Assembly (NCBI GenBank): GCA_017471285.1
Contig: JAFUUZ010000039.1
Span: forward strand, 1-41,080
Direction: 5' to 3'
Source: Paludibacteraceae bacterium
GTDB taxonomy: Bacteria; Bacteroidota; Bacteroidia; Bacteroidales; Paludibacteraceae
DNA: 41,080 nucleotides
Under the pieces are notes generated by a model. It saw only the letters and a list, made by a program, of their open reading frames with translations, searched no databases and was not told the origin of the DNA. Shown here piece by piece: positions 1,836 through 40,938 of this stretch (position 1 is the stretch's first letter; every line of letters starts with the position of its first letter). The position numbers and the translations under genes were made by a program.

Positions 1836-3062
1836 ATGAGGCGAGTAGTAATAACAGGAATGGGGATATGGTCGAGTATAGGTCAAGACTTGCAGACCGT
1901 ATCAGAGAACTTGAAACAAGGGAAGTCCGGCATAATCCATGATTCCTCTTGGCTTGATTACGGGTTGCAATCCGGATTGGTAGGAGCGGTACCTCGTCCG
2001 GATTTGAAGCCGTATTTGTCGCGCAGAACACGCCAGATGATGTCTGTAGATTCGGAGTATGCCTATATGGCTTCTCGTCAGGCATTCGGACAGGCTGGAA
2101 TATCAGATGATTATCTGCAGCAGAATGAAGTGGGTATTATCTTTGGTAATGATGGGAATTCGCATCAGATAGAGTACGACCGGATTATGGAGCAGGAGCA
2201 TTGCTCGGCGCTGATAGGGTACAATGCTATTTTCCGTAGTATCACTTCATCCGTTGTGCTGAATCTGTCCTCAATCTTCCATTTGAATGGAATAAATCTA
2301 ACGATAGGTGCTGCCTGCTCCAGTTCATCCCATGCGATCGGAATAGCTTCTATGTTTATTCGCGAAGGTTTGCAGGATATGATACTCGTGGGAGGCTCGT
2401 CCGAAATATCAAAGAGCGGAGTGGGTACTATTGTGAATGATGCGCTATATCAGGATATTTGTTTTAATGATTGTCCGGAAAAAGCCAGTCGTCCGTTTGA
2501 TAGAGATGCTATCGGTTGTATCCCTACCGGTGGCGCTGCTGCGCTGGTGTTAGAAGAATATGAGCATGCAAAAACCCGAGGCGCAACCATTTTGGCTGAA
2601 GTAGTAGGGTATGGCTTTTCCGGAGGAGGAACAGAAGAACTCTATCTTCCTTATTGGAAAGCAGAATATACTTCGATGTGCAGAGCATTACGAAATGCAA
2701 ACTTATCTCTTTCGGATATATCGATGGTCCATGCCCGTGCCGAATCATTCCCCCTCAGTGATCAAGCGGAAGCAATCGCATTAAATCGTTTATGCGGCGA
2801 TAATTCAGTCCCAATCACTTCTACCGATTCCATGACGGGGCACGGCGGTTGGATGGCGGGAGCAAGCAGAGCTGTGTATAGTATCCTGATGATGCGAAAT
2901 GGGTTTATCGCCCCAACAATTAATCTGGATAATCCGATCGAAGAAGCTCAGACATTGAATATGGTTCAAGAGCTGAAGGAAGCATATATAGATACTATCT
3001 TATTGAATACTGCAGGTATAGGCGGATCATACGCCGCACTTGTCTTAAAAAACACTGATTAA
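1836..3062 (+). CDS. Beta-ketoacyl-ACP synthase (FabF-like) with altered active site
   Basis: 408 residues from ATG 1836. An upstream in-frame TTG at 1821 would overlap the ACP gene and add residues before the family-typical start MRRVVITGMG, so 1836 is preferred. It is a KAS I/II-type condensing enzyme, which normally joins malonyl-ACP to an acyl chain through a Cys-His-His triad. The nucleophile is clear (AACSSSS, Cys161) and the second His is present (SMTGHGG, His336). In the segment aligned with the usual NAHGTSTPLND, this protein reads HARAESFPLSD, so the first His is replaced by Arg301. It may condense by a modified route, use an unusual substrate, or only load or decarboxylate. It sits between two ACP genes with 2-base gaps, so the three are very probably one operon. 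Confidence 0.85.
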   Translation: MRRVVITGMGIWSSIGQDLQTVSENLKQGKSGIIHDSSWLDYGLQSGLVGAVPRPDLKPYLSRRTRQMMSVDSEYAYMASRQAFGQAGISDDYLQQNEVGIIFGNDGNSHQIEYDRIMEQEHCSALIGYNAIFRSITSSVVLNLSSIFHLNGINLTIGAACSSSSHAIGIASMFIREGLQDMILVGGSSEISKSGVGTIVNDALYQDICFNDCPEKASRPFDRDAIGCIPTGGAAALVLEEYEHAKTRGATILAEVVGYGFSGGGTEELYLPYWKAEYTSMCRALRNANLSLSDISMVHARAESFPLSDQAEAIALNRLCGDNSVPITSTDSMTGHGGWMAGASRAVYSILMMRNGFIAPTINLDNPIEEAQTLNMVQELKEAYIDTILLNTAGIGGSYAALVLKNTD

Positions 3063-3304: not shown

Positions 3305-3336
3305 CCACTGATAACTGATAGCTGATCACTGATGAC
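3302..3336. repeat. Heptanucleotide array filling an intergenic gap
   Basis: Five 7-base units start at 3302, 3309, 3316, 3323 and 3330, all beginning with TGA (TGACCAC, TGATAAC, TGATAGC, TGATCAC, TGATGAC). The first TGA is the ACP stop codon. The last unit contains the ATG of the ligase at 3332. The whole gap is array, with no independent spacer. Confidence 0.9.
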
Positions 3337-4864
3337 TAAAAACTATCTTGACATCTTAGCGGAGACCATCCGCACCAACTGGGATCAACCGGCTCTCACG
3401 GATTTCTATCTCACCGAGGACGGCTCTGCCCAAGATACCTCCCGTGGCAACCACTATACCTACGGCGAGATGTATGCGGAAATCTGCCGCGTGGCGGACT
3501 TACTGACATCCCTTGATCTGCAAAAGGGAGACCATATCGCTATCTGTGGAGCCAACTCCGCCCATTGGGTCATCGCCTATTTGGCTATCGCTAAGATGCA
3601 GGGTGTCTCCGTCACCGTCATGCAAACTCTTAAACCAGAAGAAATTACGCGTCAAATAGACTTTTCCGATGCGAAAGCGCTCTTTACGGATGAGGATATA
3701 TGGGAGAAGTTGAGGAGCCAATCTATACCGCAGGCGGAAAGCGTGATAGGCTTGGAGAATTGGCAAGTACTGCGCGGAGAAAAAATTACCAATTACAAAT
3801 TACAAATCACAAATGGAGAAATCGGATTCAGCCCCGTTGAACCGGATTCCCTCGCTATGATCTGTTTTACGTCAGGATCAACGAGTGCATCAAAAGCCGT
3901 AATGCTGCCTTACCGAAGTTTAACTAATAATATGTATAATACTTGGGAGGTATATCCTAAGTGTGCAAACCCTAATACAATTCTAATGCTTCCTTTGGCT
4001 CATACGTTTGGATTGACAAGTGATTTTATAGGCCAAATTACGGTAGCTAAACATTTACATATACTTAAGAGTGTACCAAGCCCTTCCATAATTTATAGTT
4101 CTATATTGAACATACGACCGTATGCGTTAACCATTATACCTGTACTGCTAATATCGTTATACGATTCATACAAAGAAAAGTTAATTGAAGAGATCAAAAA
4201 ATCATGTCACTTCGTAGCTTCTGGAGGAGTGAAATTCTCACCGGAGCTAGAGGCAATTTGCCAAAAGGCTGGGGTAATATTGTCTGTTGGTTATGGATTA
4301 ACGGAGGCAGGTCCCGCGATAAGTGGGTCATCCCATAAATTAATACGTCCGAAGTCATGCGGTAAAATATTCAAAGGCATGACCGCTCGCATCTCCCCCG
4401 AAGGCGAAATCCTTGTCAAAGGCGAGAATGTCATGCTTGGTTATTACAAAGACCCCGAAGCCACTGCCGCCAAGATTGACTCCGACGGCTGGCTCCATAC
4501 CGGCGATAAAGGGCACTTGGACGAGGACGGTTATCTCTATGTGGAGGGTAGGCTTGAACAGGACATCATCGTTCTCCCGAACGGTGAGAATATCCGTCCG
4601 GATAACATCGAGTCCCTCATCAACGCCCTGCCCGAAGTCTCCGAATCCATCGTCCTTGCCCGCGATGGGAAATTGGTGGCTATTGCGGTGCCCTCCTCTC
4701 TTCCCTTTAGGGAGGAGTCGGAGGTAGGCTCTCTCCGCCGCAAGATATTGCGAGCGATAAATCCGTCCCTCCCGCTCTTCTCCCAACTCAACGATGTGGA
4801 GATAACGGACAAACCCCTCGCCCGCACCGAAAAACAAACCATCAAACGCTATCTATATAAATAG
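3332..4864 (+). CDS. Acyl-adenylating enzyme (AMP-dependent acyl-CoA/ACP ligase family), copy 1
   Basis: 510 residues, ANL superfamily: activates a carboxylic acid as acyl-AMP and transfers it to CoA or an ACP. In this operon, loading one of the ACPs is the likely job. Motifs: P-loop-like TSGSTSASKA (about 179-188), GYGLTEAGP (about 322-330), TGD within WLHTGDKGHLDEDGYL, and a C-terminal RTEKQTIKR with the likely catalytic Lys. The P-loop departs from the usual TSGTTGxPKG: Ser replaces Gly, and Ser-Lys-Ala replaces Pro-Lys-Gly. A heptad array is translated at about residues 152-162. The core (about 3870-4370) looks AT-rich and differs from copy 2, while both ends are nearly the same as copy 2. 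A palindromic repeat encodes PSSLPFREESE near the C-terminus. Confidence 0.83.
   Translation: MTKNYLDILAETIRTNWDQPALTDFYLTEDGSAQDTSRGNHYTYGEMYAEICRVADLLTSLDLQKGDHIAICGANSAHWVIAYLAIAKMQGVSVTVMQTLKPEEITRQIDFSDAKALFTDEDIWEKLRSQSIPQAESVIGLENWQVLRGEKITNYKLQITNGEIGFSPVEPDSLAMICFTSGSTSASKAVMLPYRSLTNNMYNTWEVYPKCANPNTILMLPLAHTFGLTSDFIGQITVAKHLHILKSVPSPSIIYSSILNIRPYALTIIPVLLISLYDSYKEKLIEEIKKSCHFVASGGVKFSPELEAICQKAGVILSVGYGLTEAGPAISGSSHKLIRPKSCGKIFKGMTARISPEGEILVKGENVMLGYYKDPEATAAKIDSDGWLHTGDKGHLDEDGYLYVEGRLEQDIIVLPNGENIRPDNIESLINALPEVSESIVLARDGKLVAIAVPSSLPFREESEVGSLRRKILRAINPSLPLFSQLNDVEITDKPLARTEKQTIKRYLYK
3786..3813. repeat. In-frame heptanucleotide array, TTACAAA type
   Basis: Four 7-base units (TTACCAA, TTACAAA, TTACAAA, TCACAAA) start at 3786. 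They lie inside ligase copy 1 and are translated as roughly ITNYKLQITN between the N-terminal domain and the P-loop. A matching array is at 5337 in copy 2. Confidence 0.85.
4690..4727. repeat. Palindromic CCCTC/GAGGG repeat within ligase copy 1
   Basis: A C-rich arm, a TCCC-TTTA-GGGA core and a GGAGGAG/GGAGG arm are read in frame as PSSLPFREESEVGS. The same 50 bases (4688-4737) recur without change at 6226-6275 in copy 2. A related element is in tsaB at 32474. This resembles interspersed C/G-rich palindromes that occur between genes in many bacteria; here it is coding. Confidence 0.6.
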
Positions 4865-4866
4865 AA

Positions 4867-6402
4867 ATGACTCGCAACTATCTTGACATCCTCGCGGAAA
4901 CGATCCGCAACAATTGGGATGCTCCCGCTCTCACTGACTTCTATCTCACGGAGGACGGTTCTGCCCAAGATACCTCCCGTGGCAACCACTATACTTACGG
5001 GGAGATGTACGCGGAGATATGCCGCGTAGCAGAGTTGCTCGCCTCCCTCGGTCTGCAGAAGGGTGATCATGTTGCTATCTGCGGAGCCAACTCCGCCCAT
5101 TGGGTCATCGCCTATCTCGCGATCGCTAAGATGCAAGGCGTGTCCGTCACCGTCATGCACACCCTTATGCCCGACGAGATAGCCCGCCTTATCGATTTCT
5201 CCGACGCCAAAGCCCTCTTCACGGATGAGGATATATGGACAGAACTCGACCCGTTGTATCGACCAAGCTTGGGCGATTTATCCGCTGTCATCTCCCTCGC
5301 TGATTGGTCTATTTTGCGCGGAGAAAAAAATACCAATTACAAATTACAAATCACAAATGGAGAAATCGGATTCAGCCCCGTTGAACCGGATTCCCTCGCT
5401 ATGATCTGTTTTACATCTGGAACTAGTGGAACTCCAAAAGGAGTAATTCATACTTATAACAACTTAAGTGCTAATATTGAGGGTGCTGCGAAGTTATACC
5501 CCTCTATAAAAAACAAAAGGACACTTGTGTTTTTCCCTTTGTCCCATATTTTATCGCTTGGAACAATATTAGGTTCATTATTGACAAAATGTCACATTTT
5601 TATAATGAGATCAATAATGACGCCTGAAGCATTAGCGACGAGTGTTTTGCATGTTAGGCCGTATATACTACCTGTTGTACCTAAAGTTGCTCAATATTTA
5701 CTTTCGGAAGAATATCAGAATGTTTGCAATATAGTCAAAGAATTTCTTGAATATTTAGTAATAGCTGGTGCGATGATAACAAAGGATGAAGCGTCTTGTA
5801 TAATGCAGCAGAGAATACCCCTAACAGCAGGGTATGGTTTAACGGAAGCGCCGATCCTAAGTTCTATACTCCCGTGTAGATACAGAGAGAACTCCGTGGG
5901 AAAAATCGTTTCCGGCATGACTTGCCGCATCTCCCCCGAAGGCGAGATCCTTGTCAAAGGCGAGAACGTCATGCTCGGTTATTACAAAGACCCGGAGGCG
6001 ACAGCAGCCAAAATTGACTCCGACGACTGGCTCCATACCGGCGACAAAGGCCATCTGGACGAGGACGGCTATCTCTACGTGGAGGGTCGGCTCGAACAGG
6101 ACATCATCGTCCTCCCCAACGGCGAGAACATCCGTCCGGATAATATCGAATCCCTCATCAACGCCCTCCCCGAAGTGAAAGAGTCGATAGTGCTGGCGCG
6201 CGATGGCAAACTCATGGCTATTGTCGTGCCCTCCTCTCTTCCCTTTAGGGAGGAGTCGGAGGTAGGCTCTCTCCGTCGCATTATATTGCGAAATGTAAAT
6301 CCGTCCCTCCCTCTCTTCAGCCAGCTATATGATGTCGAGATTACCGATACCCCGCTGCAAAGAACCGAAAAACAGACGATAAAAAGATATCTCTATAAGT
6401 GA
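4867..6402 (+). CDS. Acyl-adenylating enzyme (AMP-dependent ligase family), copy 2
   Basis: 511 residues, a tandem paralogue starting two bases after copy 1 ends. Unlike copy 1 it has a near-canonical P-loop, TSGTSGTPKGV (about 182-192). It also has GYGLTEAP, WLHTGDKGHLDEDGYL and a terminal RTEKQTIKRYLYK with the likely catalytic Lys. The N-terminal ~110 and C-terminal ~165 residues nearly match copy 1. The core between about 5413 and 5900, which should line the acyl pocket, is unrelated at the base level. The two enzymes therefore probably activate different acids for the same carriers. Its TGA at 6400-6402 falls in the next heptad array. Confidence 0.85.
   Translation: MTRNYLDILAETIRNNWDAPALTDFYLTEDGSAQDTSRGNHYTYGEMYAEICRVAELLASLGLQKGDHVAICGANSAHWVIAYLAIAKMQGVSVTVMHTLMPDEIARLIDFSDAKALFTDEDIWTELDPLYRPSLGDLSAVISLADWSILRGEKNTNYKLQITNGEIGFSPVEPDSLAMICFTSGTSGTPKGVIHTYNNLSANIEGAAKLYPSIKNKRTLVFFPLSHILSLGTILGSLLTKCHIFIMRSIMTPEALATSVLHVRPYILPVVPKVAQYLLSEEYQNVCNIVKEFLEYLVIAGAMITKDEASCIMQQRIPLTAGYGLTEAPILSSILPCRYRENSVGKIVSGMTCRISPEGEILVKGENVMLGYYKDPEATAAKIDSDDWLHTGDKGHLDEDGYLYVEGRLEQDIIVLPNGENIRPDNIESLINALPEVKESIVLARDGKLMAIVVPSSLPFREESEVGSLRRIILRNVNPSLPLFSQLYDVEITDTPLQRTEKQTIKRYLYK
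5337..5357. repeat. In-frame heptanucleotide array in ligase copy 2
   Basis: Three perfect units (TTACAAA, TTACAAA, TCACAAA) follow a partial one. They sit at the same protein position as the array at 3786. From here to 5414 the two ligase genes are identical for 78 bases, although regions before and after differ at many third positions. Confidence 0.85.
6228..6265. repeat. Palindromic CCCTC/GAGGG repeat within ligase copy 2
   Basis: Same element as at 4690, with the 50-base surroundings identical between the two genes. It is translated in frame as PSSLPFREESEVGS near the C-terminus. Confidence 0.6.
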
Positions 6403-6433
6403 TCGGTAATTAGTAATCAGTAGTCAGTATGAA
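6399..6433. repeat. Heptanucleotide array, left flank of the four-helix-bundle gene
   Basis: Five units start at 6399 (GTGATCG, GTAATTA, GTAATCA, GTAGTCA, GTATGAA). The first holds the TGA stop of ligase copy 2 and the last holds the ATG of the next gene. Read on the other strand, the units are ACTGANN-type, the same type as the array on the right of the gene at 6770. The two flanking arrays are therefore inverted relative to each other. Confidence 0.85.
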
Positions 6434-6788
6434 AGATTTTAAGACACAGGCGATATGGCAGCGAAGTCATAAATTAACTTTGGACATATATAGAGCAACA
6501 CAGAATTTCCCTAAAGAGGAGATGTATGGGTTGACATCTCAGATCCGTCGTGCTGTATCCTCAATACCAACAAATATAGCAGAAGGTTGTGGAAGGCGAA
6601 CAAATGCAGAGTTATCCAACTTTCTAAATATAGCATCTGGTTCAGCCTCAGAAGTAGAATATGAGATTATATTAGCGAGAGAAGTGGGGTATATAACTAA
6701 AGAGCAATGCGAGTTATGGACTAATGAAATTGGAGAGATTCGTAGTATGATTGCCGCATACATGAAAAAACTGAAAACTGCCAACTGA
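6429..6788 (+). CDS. Four-helix-bundle protein (S23 / 23S rRNA intervening-sequence protein family, Avd-like)
   Basis: 119 residues. The signature is strong: an early WQRSHKLTLDIYRAT helix, FPKEEMYGLTSQIRRAVSSIPTNIAEGCGRR (about 28-58), then two more amphipathic helices. The family is known as proteins encoded in intervening sequences of 23S rRNA genes and as relatives of Avd, the accessory factor of diversity-generating retroelements. Relatives form ring-like pentamers with a basic surface that can bind nucleic acid. No rRNA or reverse-transcriptase gene is seen here. Both ends of the gene merge with heptad arrays: the ATG lies in the left array, and the last residues (KLKTAN) and TGA are encoded by the right one. 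The role is unknown; involvement in spreading or maintaining the arrays is my hypothesis. Confidence 0.88.
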   Translation: MKDFKTQAIWQRSHKLTLDIYRATQNFPKEEMYGLTSQIRRAVSSIPTNIAEGCGRRTNAELSNFLNIASGSASEVEYEIILAREVGYITKEQCELWTNEIGEIRSMIAAYMKKLKTAN

Positions 6789-6825
6789 ATACTGAATACT
6801 GAATACTGCATGCTAATCTCTGATA
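6770..6825. repeat. Heptanucleotide array, right flank of the four-helix-bundle gene
   Basis: Six clear units run from 6770 to 6811 (ACTGAAA, ACTGCCA, three of ACTGAAT, ACTGCAT). Two weaker units in the same phase (GCTAATC, TCTGATA) reach about 6825. The array encodes the C-terminus and stop of the upstream gene and provides the ATG (6810) and perhaps the first residues of the DUF3737 gene. ATACTGA in this array is complementary to TCAGTAT at 6424 in the left array. Confidence 0.88.
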
Positions 6826-7589
6826 ACTTTTTCTCCGGCGAGCGGCCGCTATATGAGAGCCGCGATGTTGAGCTCCGTAATGTCACCATCGGTGAAGGCG
6901 AGTCGGGACTCAAAGAGTCTCGCCGTGTTGAAGCCGTCGAATGCCGCTTCGAAGGCATGTATGTCCTCTGGGAGTGCGAGGACGTTACTTGCCGCAACTG
7001 CTATTTCGCGCCTTCCGATCGCGCGCCGCTCTGGTACTGCCGCGACTTGCGGCTCTTCGACTGTCTCATCGATGCACCGAAAGCCTTCCGCGAGATAGAC
7101 CGCCTGACCCTTGAGCGAATCAAGATGACCGATGGCGCAGAGGCGTTCTGGTACTGCCGCGGTGGGCAGATCTCCGACCTCAAAATAGAGCAGGGCACCT
7201 ATGCTTTCATGCACTCCCGCGACCTCCGTATCAGCCACCTTTGGCTGATGGGCAAATATACCTTCCAGTATGCGAAAAATATCGAGATTCATAATGCCGT
7301 TTTCGATACGAAAGATGCTTTCTGGAATAGCGAGAATGTCACCCTCTATGATTCCGAAATCAATGGCGAATACCTCGGCTGGTACTCCAAAAACCTCCGT
7401 CTCGTTCGCTGCCGCATCGCCGGCACCCAACCCCTTTGCTATTGCCGGAACCTCGTTCTGGAGGACTGTTCTTTTGCACCCGATGCCGACCGCGCCTTCG
7501 AGAAATCCTCCGTCCGCGCTACCATCCGCGGCGAGATCACCTCTATCGTCGATCCTCTTCCCGGTTCCGAAATAATCTCTAATCCCTAA
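6810..7589 (+). CDS. DUF3737-family right-handed beta-helix protein
   Basis: 259 residues, matching the DUF3737 pattern of short repeated strands of about 20 residues with recurring Trp-Tyr-Cys or similar turns (LWECEDVTCRNC, LWYCRDLRLFDC, FWYCRGGQISDL, FWNSENVTLYDS, LGWYSKNLRLVRC, LCYCRNLVLEDC). This suggests a stacked parallel beta-helix filling almost the whole protein. No signal peptide is seen, so it is probably cytoplasmic. The biochemical role of the family is not established. The start ATG lies in the upstream heptad array and the last residues before the stop (ISNP) lie in the downstream one, so both ends may be affected by arrays. It could share a transcript with the four-helix-bundle gene. 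Confidence 0.82.
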   Translation: MLISDNFFSGERPLYESRDVELRNVTIGEGESGLKESRRVEAVECRFEGMYVLWECEDVTCRNCYFAPSDRAPLWYCRDLRLFDCLIDAPKAFREIDRLTLERIKMTDGAEAFWYCRGGQISDLKIEQGTYAFMHSRDLRISHLWLMGKYTFQYAKNIEIHNAVFDTKDAFWNSENVTLYDSEINGEYLGWYSKNLRLVRCRIAGTQPLCYCRNLVLEDCSFAPDADRAFEKSSVRATIRGEITSIVDPLPGSEIISNP

Positions 7590-7789: not shown

Positions 7790-8806
7790 ATGCCGAAAGA
7801 TATAGCATTCATATTGTACAACACTCCCGAGCATTCGGAGAAGGTGCAAGTAGTCGTCCGGGAGGAAACTCTCTGGATGACGCAGAAGGCTATGGCTGAG
7901 TTGTTTGGAGTAGATAAGTCGTCCATTAGCCGACATTTGAAAAATATATTTGAGTCAGGAGAATTGGATGAAAAAGTGGTTGTTGCAAAAATTGAAACAA
8001 CCACTCAGCATGGAGCGATAGAGGGGAAAACGCAGACGACGGAGTCTAATTTTTATAACCTCGATGCGATCATCTCTGTCGGCTATCGTGTAAACTCTGT
8101 GCAGGCAACCCGTTTTCGCCAGTGGGCGACAAAGGTGCTGAACGAGTATATCCGTAAGGGTTTTGTGCTGGATGACGATCGGTTGAAGCAAGGAAAAGCG
8201 GCATTCGGACAAGATTATTTCCGTGAGTTATTGGAGCGTGTGCGCTCCATCCGGGCTTCGGAACGCCGTATATGGCAACAGATTACGGATATCTACGCGG
8301 AATGCAGTATTGATTACGACAGCGATTCGCAAACGACCCGTGATTTCTATGCAATGATACAGAATAAGTTTCATTATGCGATTACGGGCAAGACGGCTGC
8401 GGAGATTGTATATGACGAGGCTGATCATACGAAACCGCACATGGGATTGACAACCTGGAAAAATTCGCCGGATGGACGTGTCTTGAAGTCAGACGTAACG
8501 ATAGCGAAGAATTATTTGGACGAGCAGCAGATTCGGCGTCTGGAGCGCGCAGTAACAGGATTCTTTGATTACATTGAGGATTTGATAGAGGAGGAGAATA
8601 CTTTTACGATGCAGCAGTTTGCCAATAGTGTCAATGAGTTCTTGGAGTTCCGCAAGTTCAAGATTCTGCCGGATAAAGGGCGCGTGTCCAAGGCGCAGGC
8701 AGAAGAGAAAGCGGGACGAGAATATGAGATCTTCAATAAGACGCAACTAATTGAATCAGATTTCGATAAAGAAGTGAAGCAACTATTAGAGAATAACAAC
8801 AAATAA
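7790..8806 (+). CDS. RhuM-family protein (virulence RhuM / Fic-island-type)
   Basis: 338 residues. It follows the RhuM pattern from the start: an N-terminal region with LWMTQKAMAELFGVDKSSISRHLKNIFESGELDE (about 29-62), a probable helix-turn-helix, then NFYNLDAIISVGYRVNSVQATRFRQWATKVLNEYIRKGFVLDDDRLK (about 89-135), typical of the family and related to phage-type regulators. The C-terminal half is helical. RhuM proteins are widespread on genomic islands and near restriction or defence genes, and their activity is not settled. The gene has its own promoter. Its last codons and stop form the start of the 53-base repeat that recurs after the next gene. Confidence 0.85.
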   Translation: MPKDIAFILYNTPEHSEKVQVVVREETLWMTQKAMAELFGVDKSSISRHLKNIFESGELDEKVVVAKIETTTQHGAIEGKTQTTESNFYNLDAIISVGYRVNSVQATRFRQWATKVLNEYIRKGFVLDDDRLKQGKAAFGQDYFRELLERVRSIRASERRIWQQITDIYAECSIDYDSDSQTTRDFYAMIQNKFHYAITGKTAAEIVYDEADHTKPHMGLTTWKNSPDGRVLKSDVTIAKNYLDEQQIRRLERAVTGFFDYIEDLIEEENTFTMQQFANSVNEFLEFRKFKILPDKGRVSKAQAEEKAGREYEIFNKTQLIESDFDKEVKQLLENNNK

Positions 8807-8843
8807 GAAAACATTAAAGATACAAAACGATATGACAACAAAA
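8791..8843. repeat. 53-base junction repeat, copy 1
   Basis: This stretch covers the last codons and stop of the RhuM gene, the spacer and the first codons (MTTK) of the DUF1016 gene. It recurs at 9971-10023, 1180 bases downstream, with two mismatches (8798 and 8812 against 9978 and 9992). Confidence 0.9.
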
Positions 8844-9986
8844 GTGCAAACAACAAACACATCAGTGCAGCAATCTCATGATTTTGCGTCAGTGATGCAA
8901 ATCATAGAGACACGCCGAAACCAGGCAGTACAGATGGTGAACCATGCGTCTTTGCTGATGGCATGGGAGGTTGGCGCATTTGTATCTGATCGCATTAAAA
9001 ATGCGCAATGGGGCACCAAGGTTGTACAGCAACTAGCGGAGTATATCCATACGCAGAACCCGACATTGAAGGGGTGGAGTAAGATTACGATTTACCGCAT
9101 GGTAAAGTTCTACGAAACATATAGTTCTGTTCAATTTGTAGAACGTGCCCAATCGCTCAAACTCACCACAGTATCAAAAGCCGTTGTCTTGCCGGAAATA
9201 GCGCAAATAGTTTCAACGCCATTGAAACAAATTGAGTCCGATGTAATTGTTTCAACGCCATTGAAACAAATGCCGGCTTTCTTGTTGAAAACTTCTTGGA
9301 GTAATCATGTGGCTATTTTCACGCAATGCGCTACAATAGATCAACAGATATTTTATATACTATATGCCGAGCATGAGGGACTGAAATTCAAAGAACTCGA
9401 ACGTGCCATTAAAACAGATGCATATTCGCAGGTTCTAAGCGACAGAAAATTACAATCTGCGATGCTGAAAGAGACCTATCCGCGAGCTGAAATGTTGCTC
9501 AAAGATAGGGCTATGTTGGATTTCTTGGGACTACCTCGTCAGTATAAAGAGAGTCGCCTGCGTAGAGGAATCGTAGAGCATATGCGTGAGTTTATTACGG
9601 AAATGGGGAAGGACTTCCTATTCGTGGATCAAGAGCATGCATTAGAAGTCGGTGGACAGGTTTTTCGTTGCGATTTGTTGTTCTACCACCGTGCGCTGCA
9701 ATGTTTGGTGGCTATAGAACTGAAAACGACGAAGTTTGATCCGCGTGACTTAGGACAATTGGAGTTCTATTTGGAAGCATTGGACCAAACTGAGCGGCGA
9801 AGCAATGAAAACCCGAGCATAGGAATATTGATGTGTAGAGATGCTAATCCTGAGGTGGTGCGTTATGCACTTAATCGTAGTATGAGTCCTACCATGGTAT
9901 CGAAATATGAAGAACAAATTAAACTTGGCAGCGTGCTGCAACGCAGTTTAGAGGAATTTGTGGAATTCATGAATAACGACAAATAA
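8832..9986 (+). CDS. DUF1016 / YhcG-type PDDEXK nuclease
   Basis: 384 residues. The N-terminal DUF1016 region (about 15-110) includes LLMAWEVGAFVSDRI and WSKITIYRMVKFYETY. The C-terminal half carries a PD-(D/E)xK nuclease core: RCDLLFYHR gives the Asp and VAIELKTTKFDP gives Glu-x-Lys. The family is thought to be restriction-like or DNA-processing, but its substrate is not established. Between the two domains is a 39-base in-frame duplication (9210-9271) giving IVSTPLKQ twice. The gene lies exactly between two copies of a 53-base repeat, so it may have arrived as a cassette. The 9986 stop is inside the second copy. Confidence 0.85.
   Translation: MTTKVQTTNTSVQQSHDFASVMQIIETRRNQAVQMVNHASLLMAWEVGAFVSDRIKNAQWGTKVVQQLAEYIHTQNPTLKGWSKITIYRMVKFYETYSSVQFVERAQSLKLTTVSKAVVLPEIAQIVSTPLKQIESDVIVSTPLKQMPAFLLKTSWSNHVAIFTQCATIDQQIFYILYAEHEGLKFKELERAIKTDAYSQVLSDRKLQSAMLKETYPRAEMLLKDRAMLDFLGLPRQYKESRLRRGIVEHMREFITEMGKDFLFVDQEHALEVGGQVFRCDLLFYHRALQCLVAIELKTTKFDPRDLGQLEFYLEALDQTERRSNENPSIGILMCRDANPEVVRYALNRSMSPTMVSKYEEQIKLGSVLQRSLEEFVEFMNNDK
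9210..9271. repeat. 39-base in-frame duplication with palindromic units
   Basis: The 23 bases starting at 9210 recur without change at 9249. Each unit contains an inverted repeat, GTTTCAA and TTGAAAC, around a 5-base centre. The period is 39 bases, exactly 13 codons, so the reading frame is kept. Confidence 0.85.
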
Positions 9987-32003: not shown

Positions 32004-32744
32004 ATGACGATACTATGTATCGAAACTAGTACATCGGTTTGTTCGGCCGCCATCTGCAAGGATGGCGAGCCGATCAAGCAGTGTATATGCCTGGAGGGTA
32101 GCAACCATGCGCGGTTGCTACCTCGCTATATAGAGGAACTGCTCTCGTTTGCGCGGGAGCAGCAACTCTCTATAGACGCGGTCGCGTTGTCCGAAGGACC
32201 GGGCAGTTATACCGGCCTCCGTATTGGTACCTCTACTGCTAAAGGACTATGCTACGGCATGGATATACCTCTTATCCCGGTGCCTACCTTGGCTGTCCTC
32301 TGCGAGGCGGCAAAAGCGCAATCACAAATTACAAATTACAAATCACAAATCACCAATCACCAATCAGCTATTCTGGTGCCTATGATAGATGCCCGGAGGA
32401 TGGAGGTCTATACTACGGATGGCGGAGAGAAAGCACGCGCCGTAGTGGTAGAGAACGAGGAATCAGTCCTTACTCCCTCTCTTGCGGAGAGGGACGGGGA
32501 GAGGTTACCCGTCTATTATTTCGGCGACGGAGCCGCCAAATGCCAATCGGTGCTGACTTCTCCTAACTGGCATTTCATACCCGGAATAGTGCCGGAGGCG
32601 AAGTATATGGGAGGATTAGTCGAAAGTCAAAAGTCGAAAGTAGAAAGCCAAATGATCAGCGGACAGCAATTAGCCTACTACGAACCTTATTATCTCAAAG
32701 AGTTCGTCGCAGCGCAGAGTCATGTAAAAGGATTGAATTCTTAA
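32004..32744 (+). CDS. tsaB: tRNA threonylcarbamoyladenosine biosynthesis protein TsaB
   Basis: 246 residues. TsaB partners with TsaD and TsaE to make the t6A modification at position 37 of ANN-reading tRNAs. Conserved parts are visible: MTILCIETSTSVCSAAI at the start, NHARLLP, and LSEGPGSYTGLRIGTSTAKGLCYGMDIPLIPV at about 62-93. Three repeats are translated inside it: a 42-base heptad array (about residues 107-120, QITNYKSQITNHQS), a palindromic repeat (about 157-169, TPSLAERDGERL) and a second heptad array (about 206-216, ESQKSKVESQM). They all lie beyond the conserved N-terminal core, where loops may tolerate them. It starts four bases after the barrel gene and may be read from the same transcript. 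Confidence 0.88.
   Translation: MTILCIETSTSVCSAAICKDGEPIKQCICLEGSNHARLLPRYIEELLSFAREQQLSIDAVALSEGPGSYTGLRIGTSTAKGLCYGMDIPLIPVPTLAVLCEAAKAQSQITNYKSQITNHQSAILVPMIDARRMEVYTTDGGEKARAVVVENEESVLTPSLAERDGERLPVYYFGDGAAKCQSVLTSPNWHFIPGIVPEAKYMGGLVESQKSKVESQMISGQQLAYYEPYYLKEFVAAQSHVKGLNS
32322..32363. repeat. In-frame heptanucleotide array in tsaB (first)
   Basis: Six perfect units (TCACAAA, TTACAAA, TTACAAA, TCACAAA, TCACCAA, TCACCAA) make 42 bases, 14 codons. The type matches the arrays in both ligase genes at 3786 and 5337, almost 27 kb away. Confidence 0.9.
32474..32510. repeat. Palindromic CCCTC/GAGGG repeat in tsaB
   Basis: A perfect 8-base inverted repeat, TCCCTCTC (32474-32481) and GAGAGGGA (32487-32494), is followed by a GGGGAGAGG arm. 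It is translated in frame. The structure matches the elements at 4690 and 6228. Confidence 0.65.
32618..32652. repeat. In-frame heptanucleotide array in tsaB (second), AGTCGAA type
   Basis: Five units start at 32618 (AGTCGAA, AGTCAAA, AGTCGAA, AGTAGAA, AGCCAAA). The same type, read on the minus strand, is in the M13 peptidase gene at 40651. It is translated as ESQKSKVESQ. Confidence 0.9.
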
Positions 32745-38905: not shown

Positions 38906-40938
38906 TACCAGATACTTACTCGTTCTTCCGGTTTGACATACATCGGGCTTTCTTCCGTTACGTTCCACGCTTCATACCACGCATTGATCTGCGGGAGAGC
39001 ACCGTTAACGCGCCATCTGCCTAACGAGTGAGGATCGCTCTTCGTGCGGTTGAGGATCTCCTCCGGACGGATGTTGCCTGCCCATACGTTCGCATAAGCC
39101 AGGAAGAAACGCTGTGCCGGCGTGAATCCGTCGCGGGTCTGCAGACGGTCTTTCTCCGCTTTCGCCTCCTCATTCAGCGTGAATGCCAGATAGGCAACCT
39201 GCAGACCTCCGTGGTCGGCGATGTTCTCGCCTAAGGTAAAGGCACCGTTGGCGTGTACACCCGGAGCTACTTCGATCTTGTTGAAGGCTTCTTCCATCAC
39301 TTTGGTGCGGGCGTCGAAAGAGGCTTTGTCCTCCGCCGTCCACCAGTTCACCATGTTGCCGTCTTTGTCAAACTGGCATCCTTGGTCGTCGAAACCGTGC
39401 GTCATCTCATGACCGATCACTACACCGATGGCGCCGTAGTTGAATGCATCGTCGGCACTCATGTCGAAGAACGGGTATTGCAGAATACCGGCAGGGAAAC
39501 AGATCTCGTTGGACGAGGGGTTGTAGTAGGCGTTCACCGTCTGCGGGGTCATGTACCATTTCTTCTTGTCCACCGGCTTGCCGAGGTAACTCAGGCTGTA
39601 CTCCTGCTCGAACTTGGCTGCGCGCTCCAGGTTGGCGTAGTAGGTGTCTGCCGGGTTGATGTCCAGCTTGCTGTAGTCGCGCCATTCGTCCGGATAACCG
39701 ATCTTGATAGTGATGGCGTTCAGCTTCTCTATCGCTTTGGCTTTGGTCTCGTCGCTCATCCATGTCAGGTTCTCGATACGGATACCTAACGCTTTCTGCA
39801 GGTTCTTGACCAGAGCCAGCATACGCGCTTTGTTCTCCTCCGGGAAGTATTTCTTCACGTACATCTGTCCCACAGCTTCTCCGAGCGTTCCGTTGACGAT
39901 TCCTACAGCGCGTTTCCATAACGGACTCGGTTCTTCGCGGCCAGACAGCACCTTGCCGTAGAAATCAAACGAAGTCATGTAAATCTCTGTTGTCAGATAC
40001 GAGGAGGCGCCTTCGATTACCTGCCAGCTGAACAGCGTCTTCAGATCCTCCAGCGGTTCTTCGGCTAACATCTTGCCTGCTTCCTGCAGATGAGGAATCT
40101 GACCGATAGACAGGCTGTCCAACGTCACGCCGAGAGCCTCGAAATATACTTTCCAATCTACTTGGGGCACTAACTCCTGCAGTTCGGCTACGCTCATCTT
40201 GTTGTAGTTCGCCTGCGGGTCACGCAGTTCCACATTCGAATAGGCGGCTTTGGCAAGACGGGTCTCCAGACGCAGGATCGTCTGCGCTTTCTCCGCCGCG
40301 TTCTCAAAACCGAAGAGTCCGAACATCTTCTCCACGTATTTCACGTACGCGTCGCGTATCGAGCGCGTGTGCTCGTCTTCATCTATATAATACTCTTTCT
40401 CTCCCAGCGAGAATCCGGCTTGGTACTCGTTGAGGATGTTCATCGAACTGTTCATGGCGTCGGCATCTACGTACATCGCCCATAACTGGAAATCCATAGC
40501 GGCTCCGAGGATGCGGGACAGCTCCTCGCGCGAACGGATGTTCCGGATATCCTCCAGCGTCTTTTGTACCGGCGCGATGCCTTCCTGATCGCGTCTGGCG
40601 GTGTCCATCGCCATGTTGTACATGTCGCCGATCTTCTGCTCGATCGAGCCTTTCGACTTTTGACTTTCGACTTTCGACTTTTCCGCTATCTCCTGGATCA
40701 GTCCGTTTACCTGCTCGAGGTTGTTCAGCCCCAGTTTGTCGAACGAACCGAAACGGCTGTATTCCGGTGTCAGCGGGTTGTTAGCCATCCATCCGCCGCA
40801 GGCGAACTGGTAGAAATCATTCTGCGGCACGGCGGTCGTGTCCAGGTTGGCAGGGTCGATACCCGTAGTCTGTTGTTTGTGGGTGCAAGCTGTTGTCATA
40901 ACTGCTAACGCTGCTAGCGTAATAAGAATTTTTTTCAT
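38905..40938 (-). CDS. M13 (neprilysin/PepO-like) zinc metallopeptidase lipoprotein
   Basis: 677 residues from the ATG complement at 40938. An 11-residue longer frame exists, but MKKILITLAALAVMTTAC is a proper lipoprotein signal with Cys18. The zinc site is HEMTH (about 508, in VIGHEMTHGFDDQG), the second ligand is the Glu of GENIADHGG (about 567), and NAYYNPSSNEICFPAGIL is the substrate-binding strand. It should cleave short peptides in the periplasm or at the outer membrane. A heptad array is translated in frame near residues 87-97 (KSKVESQKSK), and another follows the stop. Single gene. Confidence 0.93.
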   Translation of the reverse strand: MKKILITLAALAVMTTACTHKQQTTGIDPANLDTTAVPQNDFYQFACGGWMANNPLTPEYSRFGSFDKLGLNNLEQVNGLIQEIAEKSKVESQKSKGSIEQKIGDMYNMAMDTARRDQEGIAPVQKTLEDIRNIRSREELSRILGAAMDFQLWAMYVDADAMNSSMNILNEYQAGFSLGEKEYYIDEDEHTRSIRDAYVKYVEKMFGLFGFENAAEKAQTILRLETRLAKAAYSNVELRDPQANYNKMSVAELQELVPQVDWKVYFEALGVTLDSLSIGQIPHLQEAGKMLAEEPLEDLKTLFSWQVIEGASSYLTTEIYMTSFDFYGKVLSGREEPSPLWKRAVGIVNGTLGEAVGQMYVKKYFPEENKARMLALVKNLQKALGIRIENLTWMSDETKAKAIEKLNAITIKIGYPDEWRDYSKLDINPADTYYANLERAAKFEQEYSLSYLGKPVDKKKWYMTPQTVNAYYNPSSNEICFPAGILQYPFFDMSADDAFNYGAIGVVIGHEMTHGFDDQGCQFDKDGNMVNWWTAEDKASFDARTKVMEEAFNKIEVAPGVHANGAFTLGENIADHGGLQVAYLAFTLNEEAKAEKDRLQTRDGFTPAQRFFLAYANVWAGNIRPEEILNRTKSDPHSLGRWRVNGALPQINAWYEAWNVTEESPMYVKPEERVSIW
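40651..40678. repeat. In-frame heptanucleotide array in the M13 peptidase gene
   Basis: Four units (TTTCGAC, TTTTGAC, TTTCGAC, TTTCGAC) on the plus strand, equal to AGTCGAA-type units on the coding strand. They match the array at 32618 in tsaB in type and in the peptide they give (KSKVESQ). Confidence 0.9.

Follow-up and report, generated by a model that had tools for sequence, protein, structure and literature searches.

The 41,080-nt stretch of Paludibacteraceae DNA analysed here (the window; contig JAFUUZ010000039.1) carries a short gene of the S23/IVP four-helix-bundle family, both ends of which run into arrays of 7-base repeats (heptads) in opposite orientation. The question raised by this locus is whether gene and arrays are chance neighbours or belong to one system, as the earlier note on this DNA had supposed. 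Positions 6398-6809 are interpreted here as representing a discrete insertion unit composed of a heptad array, the S23/IVP gene and an inverted heptad array, and this reading is given a probability of about 0.7. The unit is the best-supported claim of the analysis, and the mechanism outlined further below is a proposal. The components of the unit and the genes on either side of it are as follows.

6398..6430, plus strand: upstream heptad array, of TNAGTNN type towards the gene (Tandem Repeats Finder (TRF) row 6398-6429, pairing test, minimum free energy (MFE) structure of the RNA)
6412-6430, plus strand: pairing arm of the upstream array (inverted match to the downstream array)
6429..6788, plus strand: gene of the S23/IVP four-helix-bundle protein, 119 aa (PF05635 profile match; solved relatives 2gsc and 2rld)
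6767..6809, plus strand: downstream heptad array ACTGANN, inverted with respect to the upstream array (TRF row 6767-6808; score 20 in our own detector; alignment with locus L098)
4867..6402, plus strand: left neighbour, an AMP-binding (acyl-CoA synthetase-like) gene that ends at the unit (PF00501; also the neighbour in L098)
6810..7589, plus strand: right neighbour, a DUF3737 gene that starts at the unit (PF12541; right flank of L098 80% identical)

In the profile search, the open reading frame (ORF) at 6429-6788 matched PF05635 (23S_rRNA_IVP) with 133.8 bits (cut-off 33.8). Among the plus-strand ORFs of at least 80 aa, it is the only one between the arrays, and it matches PF05635 and the Pfam model bAvd only, the latter weakly (28.7 bits, below the cut-off of 40). 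TRF called period 7 at 6398-6429 and 6767-6808. The heptad TCAGTAT at 6424-6430 overlaps the ATG, and copies of ATACTGA are located at 6789-6795 and 6796-6802. The downstream array starts 22 bp ahead of the end of the stop codon, encodes the final residues, contains the stop codon TGA (6786-6788) and runs to 6808/6809. Between the arm AGTAATCAGTAGTCAGTAT (6412-6430) and the complement of 6789-6807, 17/19 positions match, which none of 5000 shuffles equalled. The upstream array is short and below the threshold of our own detector; its call is based on TRF and the pairing test. In the predicted MFE structure of the RNA, both arrays pair; the resulting stem encloses the complete ORF and contains the start codon. 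The bracketing of the gene, the location of its ATG in one array and of its last residues and stop in the other, and the potential of TCAGTAT to pair with ATACTGA, all described in the earlier note, are thus confirmed.

The unit is not located within a 23S rRNA gene but between the AMP-binding and DUF3737 genes, and an Rfam search of 5900-7300 gave no match. Because the test for an rRNA location failed, it is read as an element outside rRNA that resembles the intervening sequences (IVSs) of rRNA genes. The S23 gene is under purifying selection, with dN/dS values of 0.07-0.11 in six groups (dS near saturation in several of them; a seventh group gave no value).

The association of S23 genes with arrays was analysed in two samples. 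The family survey covered 149 genomes of the order, of which 111 contain PF05635 matches with up to 20 copies; the genome of the window, which is 55% complete, has 8. The order set of 61 loci consists of the window, three further loci from its own genome and 57 loci from as many other genomes. These 57 were chosen among the listed, E-value-ordered matches (weaker unlisted ones being unused) for which roughly 5 kb or more separate the gene from the start of the contig. The second sample, the close relatives, comprises the best 80 of 370, of which 76 entered the arm test and 4 were short of the required flank. In this test, the 250 bp on the upstream side of a gene are compared with the complemented 250 bp on its downstream side, and a score of at least 14 is counted as an inverted arm. 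Controls were 30 loci each of the families GxxExxY (PF13366), HigB and GIY-YIG (PF01541), the best among the matches listed (2, 0 and 3 dropped for short flanks, respectively), and other ORFs of the S23 stretches, which are mechanical longest-first ORFs and not curated genes. Ten of 651 such ORFs proved to be S23; they were removed to give a set of 641 and kept in the 651 of the motif test. The array detector and its thresholds are our own and the taxon sampling is uneven. Many loci come from metagenome assemblies, in which repeats may be misassembled, and the plasmid cases described below are complete records.

Heptad arrays are concentrated at S23 genes. Across the 61 loci, period-7 coverage amounts to 12.5% in the first and 13.8% in the second 50 bp upstream and to 19.0% and 11.1% in the corresponding intervals downstream, compared with 0.1-0.7% at a distance of 1-10 kb. 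Period 8 is also raised near S23 (3-7%), periods 6, 9 and 12 less so, and periods 5, 10 and 11 not at all. Inverted arms were found at 48/61 loci of the order and 49/76 close relatives, but at only 26/641 other ORFs and 0/30 HigB loci; deliberately mispaired S23 flanks reached the same score in 11/720 cases. At a threshold of 16, inverted arms are present at 38/61 S23 loci versus 14/641 other ORFs, and direct matches at 12/61 versus 32/641. Array pairs that span an S23 gene are inverted in 26 cases, direct in 10 and unrelated in 4. Pairs located elsewhere are inverted in 13 cases, direct in 13 and unrelated in 30, and two of these 13 inverted pairs enclose further S23 copies (locus L055). These results support the supposition that protein and arrays form one system, including the proposed enrichment of arrays within 100 bases of the gene. 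Two outcomes named beforehand as fatal to it, an association at chance level and unrelated flanks around the same gene in close relatives, were looked for and not found.

The arrangement recurs far beyond the order. A heptad array lies within 150 bp of S23 in 52/80 relatives, and, with loci assigned to groups by record title, inverted arms occur in Bacteroidota (14/24), Ignavibacteria/Melioribacter (1/2), Fibrobacter (5/9), Chloroflexi (6/9), Proteobacteria (2/4), Cyanobacteria (4/4), Verrucomicrobia (5/6), Planctomycetes (4/5) and Poribacteria (8/9). Nine bacterial groups therefore contain at least one S23 locus with inverted arms; none was found among four further single loci. Of 30 S23-bearing plasmid records, 8 hits were retrieved and 7 of them examined; each of the 7 has a heptad array no more than 300 bp away. 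Their inverted arms score 26.5 or more in 5/7 and only 11 in the other 2, and the seven loci represent about four independent units. Two Calothrix plasmids have S23 in common as part of a shared 3.6-kb segment, and plasmid C of Trichormus (Anabaena) variabilis ATCC 29413 also bears an S23 gene. The arrays are placed close to the gene ends: an upstream array within 150 bp ends at most 60 bp from the ATG in 43/57 loci, and a downstream array, where present, starts at or before the stop codon in 32/58. The predicted RNA duplex energy between the two flanks has a median of -63.0 kcal/mol in the order set, compared with -38.2 kcal/mol for mispaired flanks. In the close relatives, the contrast is weak (-67.5 versus -56.6 kcal/mol) because their arrays share a motif.

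This shared motif is polar. The arrays at S23 genes fit TNAGY pointing inward in 41/99 cases and the opposite way in 8. In the subfamily of the window, the form is T[TCG]AG[CT]NN towards the gene upstream and its complement downstream. Tandem copies of at least two units point inward at 55/80 and outward at 15/80 loci of this subfamily; the corresponding counts are 10/60 for other S23 loci of the order and, for control ORFs, 16/651 in each of the two orientations. With syntenic sites merged, the numbers are 29/39 inward and 6/39 outward. In the order set alone, TNAGY is not tied to the subfamily of the window (1/2 versus 9/58, p 0.31). Within the 41 motif-fitting arrays, units differ at positions 1-4 in 0-3% of pairs and at positions 5, 6 and 7 in 21, 48 and 15%. 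Positions 1, 3, 4 and 5 were used in picking the arrays, so that the unbiased contrast is that of position 2 (3%) with positions 6 and 7. A constant core fits a bound or base-paired segment of the heptad, without being proof of one. A tie between array and protein similarity is visible in non-syntenic pairs; for pairs from different phyla, the Mantel rho is 0.186, compared with 0.097 under within-phylum permutation (0/500). Stop codons in three frames were considered as a cause of period 7. They are about twofold more frequent than in shuffled arrays in the order set, both near and far from S23, and in the relatives 4-5-fold near and 2.5-fold far, on both strands; this is not specific enough to account for the bracketing.

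Comparison of equivalent gene junctions revealed sites with and without the unit. The junction between pth and hsp15 was examined in the genus and family of the window (122/200 genomes matched, 30 loci fetched, 19 with both genes). It contains S23 in 3/19 loci, a gap of only 0-15 bp in 10/19 and a gap of 37-100 bp without S23 in 6/19, several of the latter consisting of repeats such as TTGGTAA. In the genome of the window, the S23 gene at this junction is accompanied by CTGACAG-type repeats, and genome G283 and one more species carry another S23 (37.5% identical) with TCAGCCA-type heptads. Between G283 and the genome of the window, pth is 98% identical over 397 bases, whereas the sequence right of the junction is only 81% identical. 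The break in identity across this unit (L275, L276) suggests a recombination break at this position.

In type I-D CRISPR-Cas operons of cyanobacterial plasmids, the junction between cas6 and cas4 shows the same kind of variation. Pseudanabaena galeata has an S23 unit with TTAGCNN and NNGCTAA arrays, and the S23 of P. cinerea (L125) at this junction is 99.2% identical to it. In Pseudanabaena ABRG5-3 (Cas4 93.8% identical), the junction is a 36-bp gap of four AATTACG-type heptads without S23. Anabaena sp. 90 carries a different S23 (39.5% identical to that of Pseudanabaena) between AGGTGAC/GTCACCT arrays; here the downstream array is located within the annotated cas4 start and encodes an N-terminal part of the protein (L334, about 2932-3000). 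Dolichospermum UHCC 0315A, whose left flank (2150 bp) and right flank (1910 bp) are 98.8% and 99.3% identical, respectively, to those of Anabaena sp. 90, contains an unrelated short element in place of S23. The ends of this element (L335, about 2726-3000) are GTAGGTTGGGTT and AACCCAACCTAC. Sites that lack the gene, which the earlier note proposed to look for, exist at both junctions.

Whole units are also exchanged. At one Fibrobacter junction, three loci (L128, L129, L139) share one S23 with AGTCATG-type arrays, and two others (L174, L108) carry another S23 (60% and 57% identical) with AGGCTCG-type arrays. L128 and L174 share 94-96% identity in their flanks; the segment that differs begins roughly where the left gene ends and reaches the start codon of the right one. 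Conversely, S23 can be more similar than its surroundings: the S23 genes of the window and L098 are 99.4% identical and their flanks 79-80%, and those of L104 and L105 (also labelled L277 and L276, respectively) are 99.5% identical with flanks of 84% and 78%. In Poribacteria, seven loci whose S23 genes share 95-97% identity with the L136 copy fall into two junction groups (L130, L133, L143, L145 and L160 versus L132 and L136). Left flanks are 84-96% identical within and 64-67% between the groups, and the right flanks have no 200-base match between them. At the junction that holds S23 in the other group, L136 retains only the S23 3' end, a piece of 76 bases that is flanked by array stretches and 98.7% identical to the S23 gene of L136 itself. 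Similar 3' pieces of about 50 bases occur in L160 and L133 some 3 kb from their S23. All three pieces are located in a permease-like gene cluster (L136 about 2672-2842, L160 about 2838-2886, L133 about 5230-5279) and appear to be decayed units.

A number of observations limit this reading or weigh against it. At the genome level, arrays co-occur with S23 (48/111 S23-positive versus 2/38 S23-negative genomes), but a reversed-pattern control does so as well (40/111 versus 2/38), and arrays are also linked to GxxExxY (42/82 versus 8/67; HigB 30/64 versus 20/85). The odds ratios are 13.7 for S23 and 7.7 for GxxExxY, and within GxxExxY-positive genomes arrays were found in 40/76 with and 2/6 without S23 (p 0.43). 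Co-occurrence at this level is therefore not specific to S23, and arrays far outnumber S23 genes; 6/7 arrays detected in the window are not at the S23 gene. The constancy of the heptad core is partly built in by the picking of arrays. In unpicked arrays, variation is confined to few columns near S23 (mean z 3.04) and also far from it (1.72), and 21/104 arrays far from S23 fit TNAGY. Array similarity tracks protein similarity weakly and the effect is small; the strand-reversed Mantel control also rises (1/500), and rho in the order set is 0.098 (6/300). The whole-unit RNA fold is only mildly stable (z -1.4, 9/100 shuffles as good). No transposase, integrase or nuclease is encoded in the unit. 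With respect to mobility, the Poribacteria flanking genes are paralogues, and recombination between them could have carried the unit. Apart from this group, compared S23 copies of more than 90% identity sit at the same site, and 20 further regions of multi-copy genomes contained no near-identical S23 pair at different sites. No target-site duplication was established at the cas6/cas4 and pth/hsp15 junctions, which were inspected by eye and where arrays or another element mask the edges. Finally, according to the available part of PMC4692102, a different type of heptamer, studied in Xanthomonas and Nostoc, is generally not tied to mobile elements.

Several of these observations would be expected if S23 were nothing special, and arrays grown by slippage at the junctions of repeat-rich genomes trapped any small gene that is acquired. 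Such passive landing agrees with the abundance of arrays without S23, with the co-occurrence of arrays and GxxExxY, and with the whole-unit variation of published heptamer arrays, as far as the accessible text of PMC4679880 describes it. An array of one direction should however leave direct flanks, and the S23 flanks are mostly inverted, both in the arm test and among the spanning pairs. HigB, likewise a small mobile gene family, has inverted arms at none of its 30 loci, and the S23 subfamily of the window is found with one motif class in many bacterial groups. Passive landing is considered unlikely.

For the insertion unit, the following mechanism is proposed. In the folded transcript, the two arrays would pair to give a stem that encloses the ORF. 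The conserved S23 protein probably binds the arrays: a ring such as the homopentamer of a solved relative would be well suited to read the regular cores, of which each heptad has one, on RNA or on DNA in single-stranded form, in a way similar to the reading of spaced triplets by the protein TRAP. Binding near the ATG could hide the start codon and lead to self-regulation, and binding to both arrays could bring the ends of the unit together. The paired arrays may represent an RNA or DNA stem that can be cut by host nucleases; RNase III cuts the stem of rRNA IVSs in this manner. Cutting and joining would be performed by a host enzyme and not by a product of the unit. Spread of the unit would involve infrequent insertion at gene junctions, together with exchange where a site is already occupied or similar, and the arrays may provide stop codons and short coding tails, so that neighbouring genes would tolerate it.

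A part of this scheme might suffice on its own. If the arrays were RNA sites for translational self-control by the S23 ring, the locus would be an immobile regulatory cassette, and its gene a normal host gene that was acquired together with its leader and trailer. The closeness of the arrays to the ATG and the stop codon, the start codon in the predicted stem and the dN/dS of about 0.1 are in line with this explanation. It leaves the whole-unit swaps and the S23-less sites within nearly identical flanks unexplained, as well as the need for an inverted array downstream, and is regarded as improbable. S23 might instead be an Avd-like partner of a reverse transcriptase, from a diversity-generating retroelement (DGR) or of group II type, with the array being copied via RNA. 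This would fit the weak bAvd match and the DNA hairpins required for DGR homing (PMC3240598, available part), but the link, drawn in the earlier note, is highly improbable in view of RVT_1 matches in 58/111 S23-positive versus 17/38 S23-negative genomes (p 0.46) and of 17/47 genomes with at least 5 S23 copies and no RVT_1 match. A reverse transcriptase as a general requirement was rejected, there being no association of S23 and RVT_1 in the 149 genomes.

Heptad arrays are also found in other parts of the window. Our own detector identified 7 period-7 arrays and none in 10 Markov simulations. For other periods, it found none at 4-6, 8-10, 12 and 13, one at 11, four at 14 and two at 15. The earlier note had counted a dozen other sites, which is about right by TRF (11 period-7 rows besides the S23 site at a score of at least 30) and is reduced to six by the stricter detector. 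Arrays without S23 include the following.

3307..3337, plus strand: ACTGATA heptads (TRF, detector)
32320..32366, plus strand: AATCACA/AATTACA heptads, inside an ORF (ORF list, TRF, detector)
40650..40681, plus strand: CTTTCGA heptads, inside a minus-strand ORF (ORF list, TRF, detector)

Some arrays are in frame within ORFs (3784-3814, 5331-5358, 32320-32366, 32618-32647 and 40650-40681). The ORFs that contain in-frame arrays comprise an AMP-binding-like pair of 510 and 511 aa, the 246-aa ORF and the 688-aa ORF, and the encoded linkers include NYKLQITN and KSKVESQKSK. The tandem AMP-binding-like genes (3332-4864 and 4867-6402) have very similar 3' halves, as judged by eye, with a similar heptad insert in each. 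Genes of the RhuM family and of a YhcG/DUF1016 nuclease at 7790-9986 adjoin the right neighbour of the unit.

The control families indicate that S23 might not be the only protein with repeats of its own. In the same genomes, GxxExxY loci have inverted arms in 14/28 cases and direct repeats of at least 16 in 15/28, and GIY-YIG loci have direct repeats in 19/27 and inverted arms in 11/27; heptads are found near 1/28 and 0/27 of them, respectively. By eye and among loci chosen mainly for high scores (from the sets L185-L214 and L245-L274 of the two families), CTCTGTG or CACAGAG occurs in the flanks of 6/10 inspected GxxExxY loci and CTTCGAC..CTCAG-like words in those of 4/9 inspected GIY-YIG loci, the others carrying different repeats. 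The S23 unit may thus belong to a class of elements whose protein families each have a repeat of their own, the fit being loose for GIY-YIG. A tentative and, on balance, doubtful extension is a broad class of transposase-less units of repeat and ORF: S23 with inverted heptads, GxxExxY with CTCTGTG/CACAGAG and a part of GIY-YIG with CTTCGAC..CTCAG. The protein would recognise the repeat and insert or home the unit at gene junctions; array-only sites and those with a remnant between arrays would be decayed derivatives; and the heptamer arrays of Cyanobacteria, Bacteroidetes and giant sulfur bacteria as well as rRNA IVSs would be parts of one system. The odds of this extension are lowered because only 4/9 of the GIY-YIG loci show the respective words. 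The result for S23 joins two puzzles, the cause of heptamer arrays and the role of rRNA IVSs and S23, in one testable pair of S23 protein and heptad array. If the reading is correct, the widely annotated 'four helix bundle protein' is part of an unrecognised family of insertion units, and such units change the ends and leaders of genes as well as operons, among them one of CRISPR-Cas genes.

Among known systems, DGRs share with the unit a related four-helix-bundle fold family, as indicated by the weak bAvd match to Avd. Unlike in DGRs, RVT_1 is absent from the genome of the window (55% complete, as noted above) and not associated with S23 in the order; no search aimed at template or variable repeats was made. 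Miniature inverted-repeat transposable elements (MITEs) and REP/REPIN sequences are short elements with inverted ends and no internal transposase that are dispersed between genes, and the S23 unit is similar in being inverted-ended, transposase-less and dispersed between genes. It differs from MITEs and REPINs in its conserved ORF under purifying selection and in its tandem-array ends, with the repeat unit varying by locus.

The TAACTGA arrays and cyanobacterial short tandemly repeated repetitive (STRR) sequences are similar at the level of the repeat: TAACTGA (PMC4679880) fits the RCTRANN class, and the ACTGANN units at 6767-6809 are tandem 7-base units of the same class. The available part of that 2015 report describes TAACTGA heptamers as intergenic and near start codons in Beggiatoaceae, Cyanobacteria and five Bacteroidetes. 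It suggests horizontal spread without a known mechanism, with a repeat-binding protein that is possibly itself the mobile element (PMC4679880). In contrast to the arrays of that report, in the text of which a term search did not find 'S23', the present arrays flank the members of one gene family as inverted pairs. The term is also absent from the available text of PMC4692102 and PMC4853749. In the open-licence literature, no paper linking S23 genes outside rRNA to heptamer arrays was found, which is not proof of absence.

The closest known system is the 23S rRNA IVS, in which an ORF of the same protein family is enclosed by a stem of terminal inverted repeats. According to the available part of PMC4990558, one published IVS has a 28-bp terminal inverted-repeat stem and, directly upstream of the S23 ATG, tandem heptamers in two or three copies that vary between strains. 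The same source recounts the proposal that IVSs were mobile, reports a solved S23 relative to be a toroidal homopentamer, and calls the function and origin of rRNA IVSs and the role of the S23 protein unclear (PMC4990558). In contrast to rRNA IVSs, the unit of the window is located between protein-coding genes and has tandem heptad arrays at both ends, and S23 units in general are found at many unrelated gene junctions, including one within a cas operon.

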